Shown here: piece after piece, positions 583 to 7,591 of the stretch
How positions within the stretch are numbered: position 1 is the stretch's first letter
Layout of the letters: every line of letters begins with the position of its first letter
Source: a virus
Direction: 5' to 3' (one strand)
DNA: 21,614 bases
Virus record (IMG/VR): IMGVR_UViG_3300025674_000474
Location: 1 to 21,614 of that record
Notes under the pieces: generated by a model
What the model saw: only the letters and a program-made list of their open reading frames with translations
What the model was told of the DNA's origin: nothing
Database searches by the model: none
Made by a program: the position numbers and the translations under genes

Positions 583-1068
583 ATGAAATATGACCGTGAC
601 GAACTAGTTAAGATGGTAGCTTTACACGAGGGGATTGTTCTCAACGTCTACCAAGATCATCTTGGCATAAATACAGTGGGGATTGGTCGTAACTTAGATG
701 ACAGAGGTATCACAGACGGTGAGCTTTTGTTTATGAACAAGACTATAGATGATGTTTACGACAATGGTCTTACAGAAGAAGAAGCCTACTATCTGTGTAT
801 GAATGACATAGCTATTGTAGAGAAAGAGTTACTAGACAGTAAGCCTATCGTAAATCAGCTTAATGATGTACGACAAATGGTACTTGTTGACATGGCATTT
901 AATATGGGTGTTCCAAGATTAAAATTATTTAAGAACATGTGGTTGGCGATAGAGAAAGTTAACTATCCTCTTGCTTGTGAAGAAATGATTGACTCAAGAT
1001 GGGCAAGTCAAGTGGGAAATCGTGCAATGAAGTTATCTTTAGCAATGAAGAATGGAGAGTGGATATGA
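583..1068 (+). CDS. Endolysin, T4-type lysozyme (GH24 muramidase)
   Basis: This is a peptidoglycan hydrolase that cuts the MurNAc-GlcNAc bond to release progeny. The N-terminus carries the GH24 catalytic pattern: Glu16 (LHEG), Asp25 (YQDH) and Thr31 in NTVGIGRNL, matching the Glu-8/9 residues-Asp-5 residues-Thr layout of T4 lysozyme (E11, D20, T26). NLDDRGIT follows, and the helical DMAFNMG segment is typical of the C-terminal lobe. The 161-residue length is normal for the family (T4 is 164). There is no signal peptide or signal-arrest segment, so it should need a holin to reach the wall. Its stop TGA overlaps the next start (ATGA). The ribosome-binding site is only a purine-rich stretch (AAAAAGAG) before ATG 583. 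Confidence 0.93.
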   Translation: MKYDRDELVKMVALHEGIVLNVYQDHLGINTVGIGRNLDDRGITDGELLFMNKTIDDVYDNGLTEEEAYYLCMNDIAIVEKELLDSKPIVNQLNDVRQMVLVDMAFNMGVPRLKLFKNMWLAIEKVNYPLACEEMIDSRWASQVGNRAMKLSLAMKNGEWI

Positions 1069-1241
1069 ATTTAAATAAAAGATATCAACAACCTAGAAAG
1101 GCACAACAAGATAATAATGTGTTTGATGATAAGAGAACAGGTAGAAAAGTATATAATAACTATTCAGGTAACGTTTTTAAAAATCCGGGTGGGGTTAGAG
1201 CATTTATGAAAGAAATGCAATCTTATAAAAAGAAAATATAG
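1065..1241 (+). CDS. Small hypothetical protein (58 aa)
   Basis: Unrecognised. It is a polar, basic protein with an Asn/Gln/Lys-rich N-terminus, a central FDDKRTGRKVYNNY and a C-terminal helix with FMKEMQSYKKK. There is no cysteine and no membrane segment. The frame stays open upstream to an ATG at 999 inside the lysozyme, but I choose ATG 1065. It overlaps the lysozyme stop as ATGA and has GGAGAG at 1054-1059 about 5 bases upstream, which is typical of translational coupling. It ends two bases before the Cys-rich mini-gene. The neighbourhood hints at a lysis or small-virion role, but nothing in the sequence assigns a function. Confidence 0.75.
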   Translation: MNLNKRYQQPRKAQQDNNVFDDKRTGRKVYNNYSGNVFKNPGGVRAFMKEMQSYKKKI

Positions 1242-1243
1242 AT

Positions 1244-1348
1244 ATGTCTGAAGAGAAAAAGAAGTGTGACACCTGTGAATGTTACGAATGTGATAAAGAA
1301 GAATGTAACTGTGACTGCCACAAGGAGGTAGAAGGAGTACCTGTGTGA
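1244..1348 (+). CDS. 34-residue cysteine-rich mini-protein
   Basis: This 34-codon ORF encodes seven cysteines at residues 8, 11, 13, 16, 21, 23 and 25, followed by His26, within an acidic/Lys-rich peptide starting MSEEKKK. The pattern C-x2-C-x-C-x2-C-x4-C-x-C-x-C-H resembles metal-cluster ligands (metallothionein-like or a small zinc site). I know of no named phage family that fits. The gene lies two bases after the preceding stop and overlaps the next start by three bases (GTGA at 1345-1348). Its last codons contain two tandem Shine-Dalgarno sequences serving the next gene. No strong ribosome-binding site precedes ATG 1244 (only AAAAAGAAAA), so coupling from the upstream gene is likely. It could be non-coding, but the exact fit between two neighbours argues for a gene. 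Confidence 0.6.
   Translation: MSEEKKKCDTCECYECDKEECNCDCHKEVEGVPV
1322..1337 (+). promoter_or_regulatory. Tandem Shine-Dalgarno sites before the GTG start at 1345
   Basis: AAGGAGG (1322-1328) and AAGGAG (1332-1337) lie inside the end of the Cys-rich mini-gene. The second is 7 bases from GTG 1345, ideal for initiation, and this decides that non-ATG start. The first is 16 bases away and may help hold or reload ribosomes. Confidence 0.7.
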
Positions 1349-1527
1349 TTGAGTTTGTGTTAGTGTTTATGATGGGATTAAGAGTAGTAGACCAAACACA
1401 AACCTTCCAAGATTTAGATAGATGCCTATACTTCGCAGAGAGATTACACAAACAACCTTCAATACCACAAAAGGAAGGACCTAACTTACAGATAACTGCA
1501 TATTGCAAACCAATGAGGAAAAGATAA
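1345..1527 (+). CDS. Small protein with hydrophobic N-terminus (60 aa)
   Basis: Unrecognised by name. Residues 2-15 (IEFVLVFMMGLRVV) form a short hydrophobic segment that could be a signal peptide or anchor. A polar domain follows with two cysteines (27 and 54), a helical LDRCLYFAERL and an IPQKEG motif, ending ITAYCKPMRKR. A disulfide between the two cysteines is plausible if the protein is exported. The GTG start is supported by AAGGAG 7 bases upstream and by the GTGA overlap with the previous stop. Its TAA overlaps the next start (TAATG). Being next to the lysozyme and another membrane protein, it could belong to the lysis set (holin, antiholin or spanin part), but no diagnostic motif such as a lipobox is visible. 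Confidence 0.75.
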   Translation: MIEFVLVFMMGLRVVDQTQTFQDLDRCLYFAERLHKQPSIPQKEGPNLQITAYCKPMRKR

Positions 1528-2273
1528 TGGTAGTCGCTGAAATTTTAACGGGTATCGCATTAGTGCAGAAAAGCGTTGAGTTTATAAAATCAAACATTGG
1601 TACAGCAAACGACATTAAAGATATAGCTAAACAAATAGATGGCTTCTTTACTGGTGCTGATCAAATGAACAAAAAAACTGGCAAAGGTTTGTCCATAGCA
1701 GAACAGTTTGGTTCAGTAGAAAATTCAGCCACAGATTTTATAGACCGTAAGTTACTTGAAGAAAAACGTGACGAACTAAAGATGATGATCAATATGAGAT
1801 TTGGTCCTACTGCATGGGATGAGATTATATCCGAAAGAGCTAACAAGATTAACGAAGTTAAAGAAGCACAAAGATTACAAAGGGTAGAAGCAAGACAACA
1901 CCAAAAAGAATTAGTTGATACTCTACAAACTATAGGTATTATTTTCTGTGTAATTGCAGTTTTGTTTATAGGGGTAGTTGTTACATTCAAAGCCTTTGCA
2001 TACGAATACAAATCTAAAGAATACACAAGACAACAAAAGATACATCAAGGTAAGATAACACAGCCTCAATACACTCGATGTTTACGTAAGAAGATGGTTT
2101 CGTACAAAGGTGGATTAGCCTGTATATATCAGGGTGCAGGTAGAACATTTGAGATTGAGTTTACTGATAAGAGCATAGGATGTCCTAGACAGTATCAATG
2201 CATATACAATCCGGGAGGTTCTGAACCTAACATAGATGACGTAATGAAGAGTCTGCGAGACATAGCTAAATAA
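1527..2273 (+). CDS. Single-span membrane protein with Cys-containing C-terminal domain (248 aa)
   Basis: Unnamed. I recall similar proteins beginning MVVAEILTGIALV in uncultured marine phages. Visible parts: a hydrophobic/amphipathic N-terminus (residues 1-22), a helical charged region with likely coiled coil (about 70-134), one strong membrane segment (about 135-159, IGIIFCVIAVLFIGVVV), and a basic C-terminal domain with four cysteines (185, 199, 219, 225). If the C-terminus is periplasmic these could form two disulfides. The ATG at 1527 is preferred over a TTG at 1503: it overlaps the previous stop as TAATG and has GAGGA at 1515-1519, 7 bases upstream. It ends the lysozyme cluster. A role in lysis or in the cell envelope is possible; the length is large for a classical holin. 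Confidence 0.8.
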   Translation: MVVAEILTGIALVQKSVEFIKSNIGTANDIKDIAKQIDGFFTGADQMNKKTGKGLSIAEQFGSVENSATDFIDRKLLEEKRDELKMMINMRFGPTAWDEIISERANKINEVKEAQRLQRVEARQHQKELVDTLQTIGIIFCVIAVLFIGVVVTFKAFAYEYKSKEYTRQQKIHQGKITQPQYTRCLRKKMVSYKGGLACIYQGAGRTFEIEFTDKSIGCPRQYQCIYNPGGSEPNIDDVMKSLRDIAK

Positions 2274-2539: not shown

Positions 2540-3604
2540 ATGGCAAGCACATATCTTACGTTAGTTAATAATGTACTGAGAGATATGAACGAAGTGGAGT
2601 TAACAAGTTCTAACTTTACTAGTTCTAGAGGTGTACAAACTACCGTCAAAGACTACATCAACAGAGCTATATCTGATATACTTAACTCTGAACTAAACTG
2701 GCCCTTTACTAGAGCAGAGGGTGCAGTTGATGCAATTGCAGGTAAGCAACTATATAGTTTTGAATCTATAGCGTCTACTCTTAAGTACATAGACTACGAC
2801 AATGTATTTCTAGAAGCAAAAGATTACATTGCAAATGGTGACTTTGAAATAGATGGTTCAGCTAGTATAACTAACTGGACTACAGTATCAGGTTCTCCTG
2901 CTGCAAGTTCTAAGTTTGGTAACACACTTTTACTTACTAGTGCAAAGGCAACACAAGAAGTAACTGATTTAATTGTAGGTAGGTCTTATACCATACTAAC
3001 TCAGATAAGTGGTGCTACTCTTACTTTAGATGTGGGTACTAGTTCAGGTGGCACACAAACTAAGTCGTCTACTCTTACCATAGCAAGTGGCAACGAAGTC
3101 TTAATATCCCAAACAGTTTTTACAGCAACAGCAACAACTCACTATGTTACATTTACAGAATCAGCAGGGTCTGCGGCTTTTGTTAAGTTGGTGCAACTTA
3201 TGGAAGATGTAACTGCTATACCTCTTAAGTATATATCTTACGAAGAATATAACGAGAAGTACAGAGAACGAGACGCTAGACCTACTACAGATAAGTTTGC
3301 TGATCCAGAATACGTATACACAACATACAACAACGAATTAGGCTTGACTCCTATACCTGACACAAGCAATAGAACATTAAAGTTTGATTACTACGTAACA
3401 AACACTGATCTAACAGCTCACGGTGACACAGGAATAATCCCGACAAGGTTTGAACCAATAGTCAATGCACGTGCAAAGTACTACACCTACATGTTTAGGT
3501 CAGACGTACAGACAGCACAATACGCCCTCAAAGAATACGAAGACGGTATTAAACGGATGAGGGTCGAACTAATAAACAGAAAGAATTACATGAGGGCAGT
3601 ATAG
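2540..3604 (+). CDS. Putative tail adaptor (tail tubular protein A-like) with inserted jelly-roll-like domain
   Basis: The likely role is a head-tail connector ring that binds the portal, comparable in place and size class to T7 gp11. Residues 1-75 form the helical start typical of such adaptors (LVNNVLRDMNEVELTSS, then VKDYINRAISDIL and WPFTRAEG). Residues about 227-354 carry the second half: PLKYISYEEYNEKYRERD, a beta region with LGLTPIPD, then a long C-terminal helix (about 306-350). Between them, residues about 96-224 form an extra beta-rich, Ser/Thr-rich domain opening with NGDFEIDG and NW, like carbohydrate-binding CBM4/9-type jelly rolls. No cysteine is present. The next gene follows without a gap. 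The family call rests on motif memory plus position before the nozzle gene. Confidence 0.7.
   Translation: MASTYLTLVNNVLRDMNEVELTSSNFTSSRGVQTTVKDYINRAISDILNSELNWPFTRAEGAVDAIAGKQLYSFESIASTLKYIDYDNVFLEAKDYIANGDFEIDGSASITNWTTVSGSPAASSKFGNTLLLTSAKATQEVTDLIVGRSYTILTQISGATLTLDVGTSSGGTQTKSSTLTIASGNEVLISQTVFTATATTHYVTFTESAGSAAFVKLVQLMEDVTAIPLKYISYEEYNEKYRERDARPTTDKFADPEYVYTTYNNELGLTPIPDTSNRTLKFDYYVTNTDLTAHGDTGIIPTRFEPIVNARAKYYTYMFRSDVQTAQYALKEYEDGIKRMRVELINRKNYMRAV
2825..3211 (+). other. Inserted CBM-like beta domain within the tail adaptor
   Basis: This covers residues about 96-224 of the adaptor. It reads as a beta-sandwich of the carbohydrate-binding type: a NGDFE opening, a conserved Trp in TNW, GRSYTILTQISG, and alternating Thr/Ser/Val strands to HYVTFTES. 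The flanking halves (ending VFLEAKDY and resuming IPLKYISYEEY) would join sensibly without it. Boundaries are approximate, and the domain identity is inference from pattern. Confidence 0.5.
3592..3596 (+). promoter_or_regulatory. Shine-Dalgarno site supporting the TTG start at 3605
   Basis: GAGGG lies 8 bases before TTG 3605, inside the last codons of the adaptor gene. It decides the unusual TTG start, since no in-frame ATG occurs until well inside the conserved N-terminus. Confidence 0.6.
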
Positions 3605-5116: not shown

Positions 5117-7591
5117 ATGGGAGCAACATACACTAGACAGTCTACGTATACTGACGGTGATACAATCACTGCGGCACATACCAATGACGAGTTTGATCAA
5201 TTACTAGCGGCATTTGCAACAAGCACAGGACATACCCACGATGGTACGACTGCAGAAGGTGGACCTATAACTAAGTTATTAGGTAACACACTTACGTTTG
5301 GAGCAGGCACAGCAGGCACAGATATAACTATTACATACGATGGCGAAACCAACGATGGTGTAATGAAATGGATGGAAGACGAGGACTATTTTGAATTTAG
5401 TGACGACATACTTATTGCTTCTACAGAAAAGCTACAATTTAGAGACACAGCAATATACATCAATTCAAGTACAGACGGACAACTCGACCTCGTAGCTGAC
5501 ACAGAAATACAGATAGCATCCACGACTATTGATATGAATGGTGCAGTGGATATATCAGGTAACTTAGGAGTTGGTGGCAACCTTACTGTAACAGGTACAA
5601 CCACATTCAACGGTGGCACACTTACTCTTGGCGATGCTAACACAGATAACATTGTGTTTGGTGGCGAGATAGATTCTGACATTATACCTGACGATGATGA
5701 CACTCACGACTTAGGATCAGCTAGTAAGCAGTGGAAAGACATATATATTGATGGTGTTGCTTATCTAGATTCAATAGATTTAAATGGTACAACAATTACA
5801 TCTACTGCCGCCGAGTTAAACATTCTTGACGGTGTAACCTCTACTGCAGCTGAGTTAAATGCTTTGGATGGCATTACAGCAGTCGTAGGTGAACTTAACG
5901 CACTAGACATAGGTAGTACTGCTATTGGTACTGCTGTTGCTTCTAAGGCAGTCATACTAGATGCTAATAAAGACTACACAGGAATAAGAAATCTTACACT
6001 AGCAGGTGACTTGACCATATCAGGTGATGATTTGACTATGGCTACTAACACAGCAGGTGCTTTACTTATAGCTGATGGTACAAACTTTAATCCTACAGCA
6101 GTGGGTGACTTATCTGAAATTTCTACAGTAGCTAACGATGATGTATTCCTAGCAGTAGACACTTCAGGTGGTGGTCTTAAAAAGATTACTAGAAGTGCAG
6201 TCGTTGCAGGTCTTGCTACATCAAGTGCTATATCAAACTTATCAGAAGACAGCACTCCACAATTAGGTGGCAACCTAGATTTAAATGGTAATGATATTGT
6301 TACTACATCAAATGCTACATTAGACCTTGCACCAAACGGAACAGGTACAGTCGTTATCAGAGGTAATACAAATTCTGGTGCAATAGTATTTAACTGTGAA
6401 TCTAACTCACATGGACAAACAGTTATTGCTCAACCACATTCTGCAAGTGTAACAAACACTATGTTACTTCCAGCAGGTGCTAACTCAACTCTTGTATCTC
6501 TTGTATCAACAGACACACTAACAAACAAAACACTTACAAGTCCTAAAATTAATGAAGATGTAGCTGTAACATCCACAGCAACAGAACTTAATCTTCTTGA
6601 TGGTGTTACAGCCACAACAGCAGAGTTAAACATTTTAGATGGTGTTACGTCAACTGCTGCTGAACTAAACATACTAGATGGAGTTACATCAACTGCGGCA
6701 GAACTAAATGCCTTAGACGGTATAACAGCAGTAGTAGGAGAACTTAATGCTCTTGACTTAGGTGCGACAGCAGTAGGTACAGCGATTGCATCAAAAGCAG
6801 TTATATTAGATTCAAACAAAGATTACACAGGTATAAGAAACTTTACTGTAAGTGGTGAGTTAGATGCTGCAACAGGAGATTTCTCTGGTGATGTTGATGT
6901 AGATGGTACGTTAGAAGCAGATGCAATCACGATTGGTGGTACTGCTGTAGCTTCTATTTTCAGTCCTATTGCAGGTGGTACAGGCATACTTACAACAGGT
7001 GCATTAGATGCAGGGTCAATTACAAGTGGGTTTGGTACTATTGATAATGGTGCAAGTACAATAACAACAACTGGAGTTATCACAGGTGGTACACTAGAAG
7101 CCACAACGGATACAGCAGCAGGTGATAATGCAGCGATTGGTTACACAGCAGGTGAAGGATTAATACTTACAGGTCAGGGTTCAACTTCAGATGTAACCAT
7201 TAAGAATGATGCAGATGCCACAGTCGCTTCTATTGCAACTGGAACAACTGTTTTTACAATGGCAGATGATGTATTTGTTACTGGCAGAGCTGCAGGAACT
7301 ATGACAACAGATAATGATGGAAGTCTTGATTTAGCTGTAAGTAATAACTTCAAAGTGACTACAGGAGGAGATTTAACATTAACTCTTACAAATCCTGCTA
7401 TTGGTCAGTCAGGTAACATATTGTTTATTAATGCAAGTAATCATACAATATCAGCACACGCATCTATATTGATTAATGCAGATGTATTAACTGCCATATC
7501 AGCAAGTGGTAGTTATCATCTAACATATTATGCAACAGCGACTAGTGGTAACAATACCATACTAGTGTCAGCTTCAGCCATACTAACATAG
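5117..7591 (+). CDS. Repeat-rich tail fibre protein (824 aa)
   Basis: This is a fibre-like virion protein, probably a trimer attached to the tail. The N-terminal domain (1-60) contains DGDTITAAHTNDEFDQL and GHTHDGTTAEGGPI, a head often seen on marine phage fibres. The shaft is Thr/Gly/Asp-rich beta sequence with 13-residue TSTAAELN-LDG repeats in two clusters (residues 228-266 and 485-549). Each cluster ends in the same 52-residue block closing KDYTGIRN. The C-terminus (about 735-824, DLTLTLTNPAIGQSGNILFI onward) looks like a knob with SGSYHLTYYATAT near the end. There is one cysteine (NCESNSHG). AGGAG at 5101-5105 precedes the ATG, which abuts the previous stop. It could also be a head fibre, but its place after the nozzle favours the tail. 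Confidence 0.82.
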   Translation: MGATYTRQSTYTDGDTITAAHTNDEFDQLLAAFATSTGHTHDGTTAEGGPITKLLGNTLTFGAGTAGTDITITYDGETNDGVMKWMEDEDYFEFSDDILIASTEKLQFRDTAIYINSSTDGQLDLVADTEIQIASTTIDMNGAVDISGNLGVGGNLTVTGTTTFNGGTLTLGDANTDNIVFGGEIDSDIIPDDDDTHDLGSASKQWKDIYIDGVAYLDSIDLNGTTITSTAAELNILDGVTSTAAELNALDGITAVVGELNALDIGSTAIGTAVASKAVILDANKDYTGIRNLTLAGDLTISGDDLTMATNTAGALLIADGTNFNPTAVGDLSEISTVANDDVFLAVDTSGGGLKKITRSAVVAGLATSSAISNLSEDSTPQLGGNLDLNGNDIVTTSNATLDLAPNGTGTVVIRGNTNSGAIVFNCESNSHGQTVIAQPHSASVTNTMLLPAGANSTLVSLVSTDTLTNKTLTSPKINEDVAVTSTATELNLLDGVTATTAELNILDGVTSTAAELNILDGVTSTAAELNALDGITAVVGELNALDLGATAVGTAIASKAVILDSNKDYTGIRNFTVSGELDAATGDFSGDVDVDGTLEADAITIGGTAVASIFSPIAGGTGILTTGALDAGSITSGFGTIDNGASTITTTGVITGGTLEATTDTAAGDNAAIGYTAGEGLILTGQGSTSDVTIKNDADATVASIATGTTVFTMADDVFVTGRAAGTMTTDNDGSLDLAVSNNFKVTTGGDLTLTLTNPAIGQSGNILFINASNHTISAHASILINADVLTAISASGSYHLTYYATATSGNNTILVSASAILT
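5798..5914 (+). repeat. First cluster of 39-base ELN-LDG repeats
   Basis: Three 13-codon units (5798-5836, 5837-5875, 5876-5914) encode TSTAAELNILDGV, TSTAAELNALDGI and TAVVGELNALDIG. They build part of the fibre shaft. Confidence 0.85.
5837..5992 (+). repeat. Long block repeat in fibre gene, copy 1 (52 codons)
   Basis: Encodes TSTAAELNALDG through KDYTGIRN. It matches copy 2 at 6686-6841 at 47 of 52 residues by hand count, but with about 38 base differences in 156. Confidence 0.85.
6569..6763 (+). repeat. Second cluster of 39-base ELN-LDG repeats
   Basis: Five 13-codon units (starting 6569, 6608, 6647, 6686 and 6725) each carry the ELN-x-LD core: TSTATELNLLDGV, TATTAELNILDGV, TSTAAELNILDGV, TSTAAELNALDGI and TAVVGELNALDLG. 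Protein conservation is high, while third codon positions vary freely. Confidence 0.85.
6686..6841 (+). repeat. Long block repeat in fibre gene, copy 2 (52 codons)
   Basis: The second copy of the block at 5837-5992. The five amino-acid changes are conservative (I/L, S/A, I/V, V/I, A/S). Most DNA differences are silent. Confidence 0.85.

Follow-up and report, generated by a model that had tools for sequence, protein, structure and literature searches.

The cysteine-rich gene and its neighbours

In the window (the whole 21,614-base stretch of viral DNA analysed here) and in its group of relatives, genes follow one another in the order lysozyme, cys, g60, g248, g69 and tail gene, where cys denotes the gene of a 34-residue cysteine-rich protein, MSEEKKKCDTCECYECDKEECNCDCHKEVEGVPV (Table 1). 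The spacing given for this protein in an earlier note on the same DNA, C-x2-C-x-C-x2-C-x4-C-x-C-x-C-H, is exact, with Cys at residues 8, 11, 13, 16, 21, 23 and 25 and His at 26, and the joins it described are likewise correct: the preceding frame stops at 1241, leaving a 2-base gap, and the next frame opens with GTG at 1345, producing a GTGA overlap. The 2-base gap is peculiar to the window's virus, and elsewhere (L001 and others) the 58-residue gene that precedes cys is missing and cys begins within the end of the lysozyme gene.

Table 1 Features around cys in the window
Feature	Position	Strand	Remarks
Lysozyme gene	583..1068	+	PF00959, E 2e-9; adjoins cys in the window's group only
Gene of 58-aa basic protein, between lysozyme and cys	1065..1241	+	Lacking in most relatives; seen elsewhere in the L036/L116 contig alone
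cys, 34-aa cysteine-rich gene	1244..1348	+	Translated; member of a conserved family
19-codon core, C-x-T-C-x-C-Y-x-C-x4-C-x-C-x-C-H	1265..1321	+	Sole exact match in the window; holds the invariant positions
Tail codons of cys	1322..1348	+	Variable; overlap the GTG start of g60 and the purine-rich stretch before it; tail differs with the g60 start in relatives
g60, 60-aa conserved partner gene	1345..1527	+	Predicted beta-beta-alpha-beta fold
g248, gene of 248-aa protein after g60	1527..2273	+	Context

Although the window contains the exact Cys/His pattern a single time, cysteine density alone is weak evidence for a gene, and is not unique within the window. Four open stretches there hold at least seven Cys in 20 residues, three of them, besides cys, being minus-strand frames, and simulating the window 300 times with a first-order Markov model yielded 24 such stretches in total (about 0.08 per simulated window). 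We consequently base the case for cys on its conservation in relatives rather than on its cysteine density.

Two other genes of the window are recorded here as separate observations. The gene of a 58-residue basic protein at 404-580 (phrog_25774) has a 96-base match, at 81% DNA identity, to gp59 of cyanophage Syn5, and also matches the pelagiphages HTVC010P and Skadi, its DNA being unusually conserved across distant phages. The 824-residue protein encoded at 5117-7591, with repeated TAAELNILDGVTSTAAELN-type motifs, is one that we take to be perhaps a tail fibre.

Conservation and distribution of the cys family

We recovered 325 cys locus hits, in which some contigs are counted repeatedly; once duplicates are collapsed, there remain 217 distinct neighbourhoods, with 177 different DNA sequences and 97 different protein sequences for the core. 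Throughout the 97 cores the seven Cys, the His, the Thr and the Tyr are invariant and their spacing is unchanged, and the acidic positions are near-invariant. Core position 11, a Lys in the window, is an extra Cys in 69 of the 97, and some relatives read C-P-T-C at C-x-T-C. With the tail gene at 2540-3604 as anchor (80 loci taken of the 142 that encode a relative), 30 of the 80 carry the family; the other 50 end before the interval, belong to a clade lacking cys, or have different genes there. A DNA pattern in which Cys, Asp, Tyr, Glu and His were fixed matched at least 119 stretches.

Three freer samples were chosen against circularity. The first was anchored on g60 and required only seven Cys and a loop of 3-6 residues; among the best 80 of 305 loci, those nearest to the window's g60, cys lies directly upstream in 70 of 78 informative loci (2 were too short), and all 70 sequences have the Thr, Tyr and His that were left free. 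The 8 loci without cys share one clean absence, in which the end of the lysozyme gene runs straight into the start of g60. In the second sample only Cys and His codons were fixed (with a second codon not starting with G), and Thr and Tyr are both present in 75 of 100 matches, which are family members, the remaining 25 being unrelated, low-complexity or interrupted frames. The third fixed mainly the Cys, Thr, Tyr and one Asp of the amino half and found at least 120 stretches; the full carboxy half, including the His and with the same spacing, is present in 97 of the 100 loci examined, the exceptions being two near-identical unrelated frames and one frame with a stop.

The comparison of synonymous and nonsynonymous change that the earlier note had proposed, made on close pairs among 113 distinct core DNAs, indicates that changes at non-ligand codons are mostly silent (pN 0.16, pS 0.77), with the proviso that these loci are motif-selected, so that pN is biased low by the fixed Thr and Tyr, and that the ligand positions, fixed by the search, necessarily have a pN of zero and provide no evidence. 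That note had also regarded an interval kept in relatives after loss of its cysteines, or stops in the frame of close relatives, as evidence against its claim, and neither outcome was seen; instead, the seven Cys and the His are retained across the three freer samples, and where cys is absent the whole interval is absent. Its proposal of a real short gene is thus well supported by a conserved family of 97 distinct cores. An open frame arising by chance has a negligible probability: although the frame is short and the 50,697 phage records searched hold nothing credible as a homologue, conservation of the core across 97 different proteins and 177 different DNAs, together with the freer samples, contradicts it.

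Within the sequences searched, the family was seen only in viral contigs. Across 84,980 prokaryote species, each represented by a single genome, the Cys/His-only pattern yielded 103 stretches with 110 matches, and Thr and Tyr occurred together in none of them. A tblastn search of the 50,697 phage records with the window's cys protein and its L301 relative gave nothing credible, the sole matches being to a single record present in duplicate, at E 6, and a looser five-Cys pattern revealed no such ORF in the stretches read of HMO-2011, CRP-1, CRP-345 and HTVC033P (L461, L462, L463, L394, L396). Furthermore, we found no significant match to the family in Pfam, PHROGs, NCBIfam or PDB sequences. At E<=1, 70 members matched only Kelch_1 in Pfam (2 members, best 0.082) and only FibroRuminTarg in NCBIfam (1 member, 0.3), and no metallothionein model in either; a profile of the 70 members found no PDB chain at E<=10, and a single cys sequence matched only integrin beta-6, over 12 residues at an E of at least 1.1. 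The earlier remark that the pattern belongs to no named phage family therefore holds for the profile libraries searched. No description of the family was found in the open-licence literature, although one may be published elsewhere, and the accessible portion of PMC9038755 contains nothing on the gene. Judging from their relatives, the carriers are probably of marine origin: one carrier (L176) has a terminase that shares 79.7% identity with its counterpart in Roseobacter phage CRP-1 and 78.8% with that of HMO-2011, and the tail gene of the window shares 35% identity with that of pelagiphage HTVC033P.

Gene order and the partner gene

Of the 214 cys loci, 207 have g60 as the next gene. In 3 of the seven exceptions the contig ends, two of these retaining a partial match to g60; from the other 4 loci, which lie on 3 contigs (L005; L007/L135; L101), g60 has been lost. 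In L005 (1084-1107) g60 is cut to an in-frame remnant of about seven codons, which reads as an in-frame internal deletion, and cys is intact. The two genes are separable, and neither strictly requires the other; a toxin-antitoxin pair was thought unlikely because each occurs without its neighbour.

The beginning of g60 also delimits the conserved part of cys. In the window the cys tail, KEVEGVPV, overlaps the purine-rich sequence before g60, and in L035 and L297 g60 begins right after the Cys-His codons, so that the tail is another frame of the g60 beginning. Since the tail varies with the g60 start, the working unit would stop at Cys-His, and the conserved protein appears to consist of a Lys/Arg-rich lead of about 6 residues followed by the core, some 26 residues in all.

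Across 45 sequences g60 has 23 of 60 positions invariant, including two Cys, and a structure prediction from 45 members has a mean pLDDT of 90.9, with strands at 2-10 and 13-16, a helix at 24-35 and a strand at 50-58. Foldseek against the PDB returned nothing for this model at E<=0.001, VIA gave weak matches, to part of a topoisomerase III (Z 5.8, the best) and to 8g9s_A (Z 4.6), and the best match in a viral library (E 2.4e-3) was to an uncharacterised protein; this lack of strong fold matches is no evidence of a new fold. The resemblance of HMO-2011 gp62 to a distant g60 is visual only. On inspection by eye, a second family of small genes (L176:6141-6374, L297:8262-8507) has a g60-like layout, its products containing several Cys and beginning with a similar hydrophobic stretch.

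Between the window and five carriers of a second group (L115, L120, L090, L114, L082), g60 DNA is 86-92% identical (pS 0.34-0.52), despite distant tail genes (30-41% identity in L114). This fits an exchange of the cys-g60 pair between backbones, or very strong constraint. In that other group the order is phrog_3704 gene, cys, g60, g248-like gene, phrog_2524 gene (presumably holin-like), lysozyme, and small and large terminase. The phrog_3704 gene lies upstream of cys in 116 of 129 eligible second-group loci and in 4 of 47 loci of the window's group. The earlier note's placement of cys in a lysis-region cluster consequently stands only in part: lysozyme adjoins cys in the window's group, but lies about 1.5-3.6 kb downstream in most loci outside it, and for g60, the constant partner of cys, structure prediction indicates a small soluble fold, after which we dropped our earlier idea that it is a membrane lysis protein.

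In some relatives (L176:10411-10677, L355:10997-11263 and L124) the lysis and packaging cassette holds a NifU-domain gene of the Fe-S scaffold type (PF01106, E 1.7e-24). Separately, the phrog_3704 gene at L176:7618-8313 matches a 'ferredoxin' label at E 1.8e-29, yet has no Pfam domain, and its cyanophage relatives are named variously, which makes the label doubtful. That cys might encode an iron-sulfur-related peptide, as a cluster carrier or scaffold accessory, draws on the NifU-domain gene lying about 1.4-2 kb downstream in some relatives; we judge it very improbable, given that this gene was present in just 14 of the 121 eligible loci in the other group and in none of the 46 in the window's group, and that the 'ferredoxin' label has no Pfam support. 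A general Fe-S linkage through NifU was rejected on the same counts.

The usual position of cys directly upstream of g60, overlapping its start region, is also what would be expected of a regulatory leader peptide, whose translation would set that of g60 through cysteine availability or nascent-chain metal sensing. This is the main rival explanation, and there are precedents for it. In the polycysteine short ORFs of mycobacteria, function is said to rest on the Cys codons, leaving other residues free. These ORFs are reported to respond to cysteine availability (Canestrari et al. 2020, as cited in PMC9094748) and, in what is accessible of that source, resemble cys in being Cys-rich and directly upstream of, and overlapping, the next gene; they differ in that the Thr, Tyr and His of cys and its spacing are invariant, and cys and g60 each also occur without the other. 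Likewise, the copper-sensing nascent proteins CutF / DUF2946 are small ORFs with a Cys motif just before the gene under control, but the accessible part of PMC9973294 describes them as exported, with a signal sequence, a CxxxC motif and a proline-rich C-terminus, none of which the 34-residue cys protein has. Moreover, an attenuator that counts codons would require only that Cys codons be present, leaving the exact spacing and the invariant Thr, Tyr and His unexplained; cys persists where g60 has been lost (3 contigs) and g60 persists without cys (8 loci); and no common RNA structure is evident, z-scores of 7 sequences ranging from +0.83 to -4.04. We thus regard a leader peptide as unlikely. 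An RNA element at cys was rejected, no shared structure being evident in the same 7 sequences.

A candidate metal-binding miniprotein

That cys is a genuine gene, with a fixed core, a free tail and a usual place before g60, is established, and its product is probably a miniature metal-binding protein made together with g60. We give a probability of roughly 60% to the reading that cys, a gene of HMO-2011-like and related uncultured phages, encodes a cytosolic, metal-organised miniprotein that is co-translated and co-acts with g60. The location and metal-thiolate nature are suggested by eight invariant ligands within 19 residues, fixed spacing, acidic composition (predicted pI 4.4, charge about -7 at pH 7.5) and the lack of an export signal, and we favour metal over disulfides because the protein has no signal-like N-terminus. 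The same pI and charge argue against nucleic-acid binding. Under this reading, seven Cys thiolates and one His would organise the 19-residue core around metal, the eight ligands being enough for two tetrahedral zinc sites, or for a small Cu(I)/Zn-thiolate cluster; two Zn would be the simplest count, and no structure or family match in Pfam, PHROGs, NCBIfam or the PDB points to a particular metal. Translated together, cys and g60 would most likely share a target or process in the host cell during infection. AlphaFold2, run without metal on 70 aligned members, gave a mean pLDDT of 64 and no secondary structure, which would be expected of a metal-organised peptide and equally of a disordered one, and so says little.

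Cys shares its very small size and its dense C-x-C and C-x2-C motifs with metallothioneins such as the plant Ec-1 gamma domain and fungal Cu-metallothioneins, and the Ec-1 gamma spacing (C-x3-C-x-C-x3-C-x5-C-x-C) resembles the cys core. A metallothionein-like store or detoxifier, buffering Cu, Zn or Cd generically during infection and acting without a partner, would accord with seven Cys in 19 core residues and several C-x-C. However, the spacing of cys differs and is rigid, which with the invariant Tyr and Thr suggests a defined structure, the final His is also invariant, and cys is frequently paired with g60; we hold such a role to be decidedly unlikely. As no metallothionein model in Pfam or NCBIfam matched, we place cys among putative small metal-thiolate proteins rather than metallothioneins. 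Zinc knuckles and ribbons share C-x-T-C, with C-P-T-C in some cys relatives, whereas cys is acidic and packs its ligands far more tightly along the sequence than a classical ribbon or cross-brace does.

A more specific form of the metal-binding reading, which we offer tentatively and think rather doubtful, is a phage-only two-gene module in which a two-zinc unit of about 26 residues complexes or matures g60, the pair hits a host target (in takeover or counter-defence), and both genes move between distant backbones as a unit.

Since g60 is a constant neighbour and lysozyme is not, the unit worth studying is the cys-g60 pair rather than the neighbouring lysis enzyme. In phages related to the HMO-2011 type, cys represents a strictly conserved gene family below the usual gene-calling lengths, missing from the profile libraries searched; as judged from its sequence matches, it is widespread in phage contigs and unannotated. 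If metal binding is true, cys would be among the smallest phage metalloproteins.
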